The notes below the pieces were generated by a model, which saw only the letters and a list, made by a program, of their open reading frames with translations, searched no databases and had not been told where the DNA came from. Positions 46,211 to 48,502 of a stretch of 64,000 nt of DNA are shown in pieces. Source of the stretch: Candidatus Cetobacterium colombiensis (GTDB lineage Bacteria; Fusobacteriota; Fusobacteriia; Fusobacteriales; Fusobacteriaceae). Within the stretch, counting starts at the first letter, position 1; every line of letters begins with the position of its first letter. The DNA lies in assembly GCF_033962415.1 (NCBI RefSeq), contig NZ_JAVIKH010000006.1, forward strand, positions 62,001-126,000. The letters run 5' to 3'. The translations under genes were made by a program, and so were the position numbers.

Positions 46211-46239
46211 AATATACTATATTCTATTACCGTTGTCAA
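46211..46239 (-). promoter_or_regulatory. promoter of the TPP riboswitch-thiDM transcript
   Basis: On the minus strand -35 TTGACA (46234-46239) and -10 TATATT (46211-46216) are exactly 17 bases apart. The -35 lies inside the last codons of the upstream muramidase gene, so that gene's end doubles as promoter. Confidence 0.75.
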
Positions 46240-46831
46240 CTATAGCCATTTCTTTTAATTTAGTTCTATAAGTTAAGATTCTTTTTTTCCAACCTTTACC
46301 ATATAAACTCCAACTATTTAAACTTTTATAGTAATTAATTCTTTCTTCTGTCATTAAATCAATAAACTTTTCATGATCTTGCACTGAGTTTATAACTGCA
46401 ATTGTCTTGCTACCCAATACTCCATCTACTTCAATATTTTCTGAAGGTTTATAACGTTTTAAGGCTCTTTGAGTTACAACAGCTCCTGCATTATAGCCTC
46501 CGTTAAAAAATATATCAAATATCATCATTTGAGAATATGAATGTTTTATTTCATTTAGTCTATATTTTACAAGTAGATGTTCAGCTATCTCTCTAGCCTG
46601 AGTTTCTGTAAGAGACTTTATCTCATAATTTTTATTAAATTTTTTGTTATACTCAAGTAAAATAAAATTTCTTATTCCATATTTTGAAAATTCTTTTTGT
46701 GTTTTCACAAGTTTGTCCCCTTCATGTGATAACACTTCACTTATTATTATCTCTCTAACCTTTGATTCTTCAACTCCGAAAATAGCTGTTGAGTATAATA
46801 AAGTGATTATAATTACAAATTTTTCTAGCAT
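46217..46831 (-). CDS. secreted GH108-type muramidase/endolysin-like protein
   Basis: The 204-residue protein has a signal peptide (MLEKFVIIITLLYSTAIFG) followed by a GH108-like domain: Glu in SEVLSHEGDKL near 35, probable catalytic acid (usual wording EGG), and YGIRNFIL. A C-terminal peptidoglycan-binding type-3 segment shows DIFFNGGYNAGAVVTQRAL, VDGVLGSKTIAVIN and GWKKRILTYR. Related phage endolysins lack a cleaved signal; here no phage genes surround it, so it looks like a domesticated wall hydrolase. The changed Glu motif leaves activity unproven. Confidence 0.75.
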   Translation of the reverse strand: MLEKFVIIITLLYSTAIFGVEESKVREIIISEVLSHEGDKLVKTQKEFSKYGIRNFILLEYNKKFNKNYEIKSLTETQAREIAEHLLVKYRLNEIKHSYSQMMIFDIFFNGGYNAGAVVTQRALKRYKPSENIEVDGVLGSKTIAVINSVQDHEKFIDLMTEERINYYKSLNSWSLYGKGWKKRILTYRTKLKEMAIVDNGNRI

Positions 46832-46917: not shown

Positions 46918-48312
46918 TTATAGAGTTTCTGCAACTTTTTGAACTTTTTCCTTAAATTCAGTTATATCTTTTATAACTTTTTTAGAATCTACAGTTTTTA
47001 TTTTTTTATCTTCTACTATAAGTTTTCCATTTACAATAACTGTATCAACATTACTTGCATTAGCTGAATATACTAAAGCTGAGTATGGATCATAAATCGG
47101 ATTCATGTTAACTGACTTTGTTTCAACAATTACAACGTCAGCCAATTTTCCAACCTCTAAACTTCCCAATTCTTTTTCTCTATGTATAGCTTTAGCTCCA
47201 CCGATAGTTGCCATCTCTACAGCTTTTTTCGGAGGTAATGCAGATCTATCTTTTGAATCTAATTTATGTAACTTTGCAACGTATCCCATTTGACCAATTA
47301 TATCTAAAGTATTTCCACTCATTGGACCATCTGTTCCAAGACCTACTCTCATTCCCATATCATGCATTTTTAAAGCAGGAGAAATTCCCTTTGCAGACTT
47401 TATATTTGCTACCATATTATGTGCTATACCTATATCTCTTTTTTTCATTAACTCTATATCACTATCAGTTACAAAGATATTATGTGCAGCTATAAATCTT
47501 TCATTTAAAAGTCCCAAAGAATCTAAATATTCTACAGGAGTCATTTTATAATCTTTTTTTATCTTATTAAACTCTACATCTGTTTCTGCTACGTGCATTG
47601 AAACAGGCACATTATATTTTTTTGAAAGTTCTTTTATTTTTAAAAGCTCCTCTTTCGTTACTGTATGAGGGCCATGAGGACCAAATCCAGGAGTTATTAA
47701 TTCATCATTTTTATATTTTTCAACAAAAGCTACTGCTCTATTTAAAGTTTCTCCCTTTTCTTTTCCATCTGCAGTTGGATATTTTATTATATTTTGAGTC
47801 ATAACTCCTCTTAGTCCAACCTCTTTAACTGCTTCTGCTGAATTCTCTTCAAATAAGTACATATCTACCATAGTTGTTACTCCACCTAATGCCATTTCCA
47901 TAGCTCCATGTTTTGCACCAAGATAAGACATTTCAGGACTTACCATTTGATTTTCTAAAGGAAATATATATCTATTTAATCTATCAGGTACATCATCTGC
48001 TAAAGATCTAAATACTGACATTGAAGCATGAGTATGAGTGTTTATCATTCCAGGCATAATTATACCATCCTCAGCATCTATAACTTTATTTGCAGTATAT
48101 TTGTTTAATAAATCTTCATTTCCTATTGAAATTATTTTATTATTTTTTATAACAATAACTCCATTTTCTATTATCTCTCTTTTGTCGTTCATTGTTAAAA
48201 GAGTTCCATTTTTTATTATTATATTAGCTTGCTCTTTTTTCTCCACTAAAGAACTGCACCCCACAATAAACAAACTTCCCAACAGCAATGCACCTTTTAA
48301 ATAGTTTTTCAT
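46918..48312 (-). CDS. amidohydrolase-superfamily deaminase, predicted lipoprotein (MtaD/SsnA/SAH-deaminase-like)
   Basis: The 464-residue protein begins with a lipoprotein signal ending FIVGC (Cys19). The metal-site motifs are PGMINTHTHASM near 89, VSMHVAETD near 240, AAHNIFVTD near 275 and GLGTDGPMSGN near 330, with the wording of the MTA/SAH deaminase and SsnA group. LADVVIVETKS near 410 is typical. Cytoplasmic relatives deaminate purine nucleosides or related amines. A guanine-class riboswitch in its leader supports a purine-related substrate, here apparently outside the cytoplasm. Confidence 0.85.
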   Translation of the reverse strand: MKNYLKGALLLGSLFIVGCSSLVEKKEQANIIIKNGTLLTMNDKREIIENGVIVIKNNKIISIGNEDLLNKYTANKVIDAEDGIIMPGMINTHTHASMSVFRSLADDVPDRLNRYIFPLENQMVSPEMSYLGAKHGAMEMALGGVTTMVDMYLFEENSAEAVKEVGLRGVMTQNIIKYPTADGKEKGETLNRAVAFVEKYKNDELITPGFGPHGPHTVTKEELLKIKELSKKYNVPVSMHVAETDVEFNKIKKDYKMTPVEYLDSLGLLNERFIAAHNIFVTDSDIELMKKRDIGIAHNMVANIKSAKGISPALKMHDMGMRVGLGTDGPMSGNTLDIIGQMGYVAKLHKLDSKDRSALPPKKAVEMATIGGAKAIHREKELGSLEVGKLADVVIVETKSVNMNPIYDPYSALVYSANASNVDTVIVNGKLIVEDKKIKTVDSKKVIKDITEFKEKVQKVAETL

Positions 48313-48330
48313 TAAATAATCCTCCCAAAT

Positions 48331-48362
48331 AAAAAAATCCCAGCAAGCAAAAGCCTACTGGG
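48331..48362 (-). terminator. terminator of the purine riboswitch
   Basis: On the minus strand CCCAGTAGGC and GCTTGCTGGG pair (two G-U pairs), followed by ATTTTTTT, 19 bases before the amidohydrolase start codon. Ligand-bound riboswitch would favour this hairpin and switch the gene off. Confidence 0.8.
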
Positions 48363-48379
48363 TTTAACAATCCCAATTT

Positions 48380-48452
48380 ACTCTTACTTATAGTACCAAA
48401 TTTACGGTTTGGTGTAGAAACTTTTGGCCATATTCCAAATTTATATAAGATT
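48380..48452 (-). ncRNA. purine riboswitch, guanine class
   Basis: On the minus strand the aptamer reads TCTTATATAA, then ATATGGCC, the conserved GTTTCTAC, CCGTAAA and ACTATAAG. Loops L2 and L3 and the P1 arms (CTTAT/ATAAG) follow the xpt-type consensus. The nucleotide equal to C74 of the xpt aptamer is C (in ACTAT) rather than the U of adenine riboswitches, so guanine or hypoxanthine is predicted. Confidence 0.9.
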
Positions 48453-48474
48453 TAAATAAATATTTCACGAGATA

Positions 48475-48502
48475 ATTCTATCATATTTAAATTTAAAGTC
48501 AA
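48475..48502 (-). promoter_or_regulatory. promoter of the purine riboswitch-amidohydrolase transcript
   Basis: On the minus strand -35 TTGACT (48497-48502) and -10 TAGAAT (48475-48480) are 16 bases apart, just ahead of the aptamer. Confidence 0.65.

Follow-up and report, generated by a model that had tools for sequence, protein, structure and literature searches.

Why should a riboswitch that responds to purines inside the cell stand ahead of a gene whose product appears to leave the cytoplasm? This question is raised by a transcription unit of Candidatus Cetobacterium colombiensis within the analysed 64-kb window (the whole stretch of DNA under study, 64,000 nucleotides), in which a purine aptamer precedes an amidohydrolase with a lipoprotein signal. 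The coordinates given in the first-pass annotation, 46918–48502, coincide exactly with a unit extending from promoter to stop codon, which is composed of the following features, listed in the order of transcription:

48475..48502 (−): promoter-like match, TTGACT-16-TAGAAT with extended −10 TG
48371..48468 (−): purine riboswitch aptamer of the guanine class (RF00167, C at the position equivalent to xpt-74)
48339..48392 (−): predicted expression platform with antiterminator (MFE of the truncated transcript, 12 of 12 leaders)
48339..48362 (−): intrinsic terminator, 10 bp stem, UUUU loop and T run (hairpin of −16.9 kcal/mol)
46918..48312 (−): predicted exported amidohydrolase (subfamily A), a lipoprotein of 464 aa (ORF, Pfam, lipobox, model)

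Architecture of the riboswitch leader

The RF00167 match at 48468–48371 (−) covers the full model length and reaches 67.1 bits (E 1.3e-9 for the whole 64-kb window), compared with a curated gathering score of 37 bits. The core segments UAUAA, AAUAUGG, GUUUCUAC, CCGUAAA and ACUA correspond to the consensus, UAUAA forming J1/2, GUUUCUAC J2/3 and ACUA J3/1. As J3/1 reads ACUA, the equivalent of xpt C74 is a C, which places the aptamer in the guanine class and agrees with the previous description of a clear purine aptamer. Conservation of J2/3 and J3/1 extends to 15 leaders of the two subfamilies A and B. We infer from the sequence a guanine-class purine riboswitch, the predicted ligand of which is guanine or hypoxanthine. 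The promoter attributed to this leader corresponds to the promoter-like element at 48502–48475 (−); such matches are overall no commoner than expected by chance in this A+T-rich stretch, and most orthologous leaders carry a similar element in the same place.

Downstream of the aptamer, the claimed terminator was recovered as a stem of 10 pairs followed by a T run (48362–48339 (−)), one terminator being found versus 0.4 expected in shuffles. An antiterminator can be formed by pairing of AAGUAAGAG with CUUUUGCUU, complemented by UUGGG with CCCAG; AAGUAAGAG starts within the 3′ strand of P1, and the antiterminator overlaps P1 and competes with the terminator. With the transcript truncated at the terminator loop, MFE folding yields the antiterminator, and with the full leader it yields P1 and the terminator. 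After trimming of the 5′ flank of the window sequence and removal of everything beyond the stem, the antiterminator was favoured despite the complete terminator, suggesting that the two states are near in energy, as a switch requires. The terminator/antiterminator arrangement is retained in all 12 leaders compared (orthologues and the in-genome paralogue), in which only 0–4% of shuffles form an equally strong antiterminator duplex. In two of them (L031 and L036) the terminator sequence differs and the antiterminator strand is changed too, so that both strands are altered. Judged by this architecture, the leader is predicted to be a canonical transcriptional OFF switch. It resembles the Bacillus subtilis xpt-pbuX leader (RF00167) in its three-way junction, consensus core, C74, terminator and an antiterminator using the 3′ strand of P1. 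In contrast to xpt-pbuX, however, it does not precede a cytoplasmic salvage enzyme or permease but a predicted exported deaminase.

The amidohydrolase and its export signal

The open reading frame at 48312–46918 (−), headed by the ribosome-binding site GGGAGG, encodes a protein matching Pfam Amidohydro_1 with 254.9 bits. Its best NCBIfam matches belong to the MTA/SAH/5′-deoxyadenosine deaminase group, although none of the equivalog cut-offs is reached (best score 399.8 bits versus 609; PRK07228, 313.1 of 522 bits; PRK15493, 247.8 of 779 bits). The protein is therefore not filed as a named equivalog, and its substrate is not fixed by homology. Its earlier placement in the MTA/SAH deaminase group agrees with the best matches and with the fold. 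The AlphaFold model (mean pLDDT 92.5) finds its nearest solved structures in 3lnp and the adenosine/MTA deaminases 4dzh, 4f0r/4f0s, 4dyk and 4gbd (1.3–1.7 Å). Atrazine chlorohydrolase and an isocytosine/8-oxoguanine deaminase (7ww2) rank next, and guanine deaminases appear later, at 2.9 Å or worse and ca. 20% identity. Superposition with 4f0r, 4dzh and 4gbd gave TM values of 0.90–0.97 at 1.3–1.5 Å. In fold (TM 0.90–0.97) and in metal-binding and catalytic residues, the protein is thus akin to the enzymes of Chromobacterium violaceum (4f0r/4f0s), Pseudomonas aeruginosa (4dyk/4gbd) and Xanthomonas (4dzh) and, with TM 0.81–0.93, to Thermotoga TM0936, an enzyme that uses adenosine and MTA as substrates and to which SAH deaminase function was assigned (PMC4372640).

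Six residues (H93, H95, H240, E243, H277 and D328) are invariant in 27 homologous sequences and compose the set of HxH, His and Asp metal ligands together with the HxxE and His motifs, with roles taken from the superfamily. The Glu of the FPLE motif aligns with that of WPTE in 4f0r. Compared to the characterised MTA, SAH and adenosine deaminases, to which it is ca. 30% identical, the window protein differs by its N-terminal lipoprotein or secretion signal and by altered pocket motifs, namely GPHGPH for xPHAPY, HNMVAN for HNPASN and GTDGPMSGN for GTDGAASNN. Based on the fold ranking and the invariant catalytic residues, an adenosine-type nucleoside (adenosine, deoxyadenosine, MTA or 5′-deoxyadenosine) is the most likely substrate. 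The fold similarity favours a substrate of the adenosine/MTA type over one of the guanine type. The first-pass annotation had expected the switch to narrow the substrate range, which holds as far as "purine-related" and no further. An identity as guanine deaminase was set aside in view of the low fold rank and a TIGR02967 score of 154 bits against a cut-off of 375.4.

The N-terminus (MKNYLKGALLLGSLFIVGC, followed by SS) contains a plain lipobox, IVGC, with Cys19. The lipoprotein assignment, made by a pattern check, is based on a positively charged N-terminus, a hydrophobic stretch and a lipobox with Cys, all of which are present. A lipobox or signal peptide was found in 15 of 17 aligned close Fusobacteriota homologues. 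The lipobox is retained in the Cetobacterium orthologues, the in-genome paralogue and a homologue of another genus (L031); among the farther orthologues, one (L033) has another lipobox and five (L032, L034–L037) have a signal-peptide-like N-terminus. Only two homologues of genus g14 (L038, L039) exhibit a cytoplasmic-type start. On the tree, the exported Fusobacteriota proteins require a single state change, with weak support (55/91). The export signal proposed earlier is supported, being kept in orthologues as lipobox or signal peptide, and the window protein is predicted to be exported and held in the cell envelope by a lipid anchor.

Purine riboswitches in the genome and in relatives

The genome contains 11 purine riboswitches, three of which precede amidohydrolase genes of this group. 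Besides the window gene, these encode a lipoprotein paralogue and a cytoplasmic enzyme (34% identical), the latter gene standing ahead of an NCS2 permease. The paralogue (C7:76055-77434; L017, G000:C7:73500-78500) is a 52% identical lipoprotein deaminase with its own guanine riboswitch and a near-identical leader. The window gene is not a lone oddity, as the same genome harbours two more riboswitch-controlled deaminases of this kind, one likewise a lipoprotein and the other cytoplasmic. The other genes of the regulon encode adenine deaminase, a BMP-family lipoprotein, PurE-PurK and further Pur proteins, adenosine deaminase, GuaA, an NCS2-type permease followed by xanthine-dehydrogenase-type genes, and two further NCS2 permeases. 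Several of these gene names were read from the sequence, family models having been run on the amidohydrolases and adenine deaminase only. At one locus (L013, 2551–2840), two divergent purine riboswitches lie ca. 100 bp apart, one serving adenine deaminase and the other the BMP-family nucleoside-binding lipoprotein. Elsewhere the genome encodes a lipoprotein of the 5′-nucleotidase family, which could supply nucleosides.

Two of the 11 aptamers, those of add and of one NCS2 permease, carry U at position 74. The aptamer ahead of add (L020, 633–732 (+)) has GUAUCUAC instead of GUUUCUAC as J2/3 and a terminator-like hairpin downstream; in view of its U74 it is probably adenine-sensing. In the permease leader (L019, 4303–4206 (−)), the 3′ strand of P1 runs into the Shine-Dalgarno sequence, which looks like translational control by adenine. 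In Vibrio vulnificus, add is a cytoplasmic adenosine deaminase controlled by an adenine riboswitch with U74. The window locus shares with that system a purine aptamer governing an adenosine-type deaminase, and the present genome likewise has add under a U74 aptamer; however, the window gene combines a C74 aptamer with a predicted exported enzyme, whereas the add enzyme is cytoplasmic, belongs to another family and is governed by U74.

Among 61 related genomes, a purine riboswitch was found at subfamily A genes in 11, at subfamily B genes (C7 type) in four and at genes of the cytoplasmic type in 12. It is present at 11 of the 16 subfamily A genes examined, including one whose product has a signal peptide instead of a lipobox, and absent at the other five (G014, G022, G033, G036, G054); the subfamily B gene of G036 also lacks it. 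In two g14 genomes, a cytoplasmic homologue (55%) lies ca. 25 bp behind a gene called adenine deaminase by its motifs and its similarity to ade of this genome, and no purine riboswitch is found within the stretch examined (L066, L067). Exported amidohydrolases with a signal peptide or lipobox and 46–54% identity also occur in Photobacterium (54%), Proteus (51%) and Vibrio (46%) (L099, L100 and L101, respectively). Unlike for the window gene, no purine riboswitch was seen in their upstream regions, which were read by eye. By its HNHLPM motif, the Vibrio homologue, a lipoprotein, belongs to the paralogue type. As the riboswitch is absent at five subfamily A genes and none was seen by eye at the gammaproteobacterial homologues, the tie between riboswitch and gene is not universal.

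Of the neighbours thiD-thiM (with their own TPP riboswitch), the divergent glyA and a muramidase-like gene, none is a purine gene. The TPP riboswitch (46193–46096 (−), RF00059, 78.8 bits) ahead of thiD-thiM (46005–44379) is ordinary and kept in relatives. Between the deaminase gene and thiD, a gene at 46217–46831 (−) encodes a small exported protein in which a peptidoglycan domain is weakly predicted (PG_binding_3), and it adjoins the deaminase in C. somerae too. The same gene order recurs in C. somerae; its window-gene counterpart resides on a 705-kb replicon listed as plasmid and its paralogue on a 128-kb plasmid.

Proposed function and competing explanations

On these data we propose, with good though not full confidence, that the locus specifies an envelope-located adenosine-type deaminase of a purine-salvage regulon which is switched off by guanine or hypoxanthine. 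At low intracellular levels of guanine and hypoxanthine the aptamer would be empty, the antiterminator would form and the gene would be transcribed. The product would then be exported and lipid-anchored in the cell envelope, where it might deaminate periplasmic adenosine, deoxyadenosine, MTA or 5′-deoxyadenosine to inosine-type products. These would be imported by transporters that belong to this regulon, such as the BMP-type binding lipoprotein and the NCS2 permeases, and converted in the cytoplasm to hypoxanthine and guanine, which would turn off the switch and thereby establish a product feedback across the membrane.

The same switch and location are also conceivable for an enzyme acting on another aminated heterocycle, e.g. 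guanine, 8-oxoguanine, isocytosine or a modified purine, with recovery of nitrogen or bases as the gain. The superfamily is known for its wide substrate range, the pocket motifs of the window protein are unusual, and TIGR02967 (guanine deaminase) as well as PRK08203 (8-oxoguanine deaminase, 242.6 bits) also match. Nevertheless we consider this explanation unlikely, since the former score is far under its cut-off and the fold search is headed by adenosine/MTA deaminases, with 7ww2 lower and the guanine deaminases at 2.9 Å or more. The best NCBIfam matches, the models for MTA/SAH and 5′-deoxyadenosine deaminases, would also suit an enzyme whose true substrates are the SAM by-products MTA, SAH or 5′-deoxyadenosine, the switch merely coupling their recycling to the purine status. 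However, these compounds arise in the cytoplasm, yet export is conserved, and the rest of the regulon is concerned with purine uptake, salvage and synthesis, which renders this possibility quite improbable.

Two further explanations concern the ligand and the location. Variants of the guanine riboswitch with altered specificity and atypical gene associations are documented (PMC9295807), and the aptamer might accordingly recognise 2′-deoxyguanosine or xanthine rather than guanine or hypoxanthine. We set this very improbable option aside because the core is that of the consensus, every core and junction nucleotide being present together with C74; in addition, no related Rfam family scored above RF00167, and aptamers of this type also stand ahead of guaA, pur and permease genes of the genome. 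That the hydrophobic N-terminus is no export signal and the enzyme remains in the cytoplasm would fit the homologues of G024 and G035, which are plainly cytoplasmic and without hydrophobic segment, but the probability appears almost negligible in light of the lipobox retained in Cetobacterium orthologues and paralogue and of the signal-peptide-like segments or other lipoboxes in other genera, including Photobacterium, Proteus and Vibrio.

Predicted synthesis under guanine/hypoxanthine scarcity, predicted export and membership in a regulon devoted to the uptake and salvage of purines together make envelope-located purine scavenging the best explanation. The earlier suggestion of purine scavenging outside the cell membrane thereby receives in silico support from the conserved export signal and the regulon membership. 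Riboswitch and enzyme superfamily are each well known, but their conserved combination appears to be undescribed; no paper on a guanine riboswitch ahead of an exported deaminase was found in the open-licence literature, which is weak evidence of absence. As a more general and tentative proposal, the chances of which we place slightly below even, Cetobacterium and its relatives might possess an envelope branch of purine salvage. Two distinct exported deaminases, both with a guanine riboswitch of their own, would convert adenosine-type nucleosides outside the cell before these are imported, and the purines eventually obtained would shut off both enzymes. If true, guanine riboswitches would also govern an enzyme that works beyond the inner membrane, and a family annotated just as "amidohydrolase" would obtain a concrete function. 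Moreover, a gut bacterium would turn extracellular adenosine of its host into inosine depending on the bacterium's own supply of guanine. Since both nucleosides serve the host as signals, such a regulated external deamination of adenosine would matter to fields other than riboswitch research.
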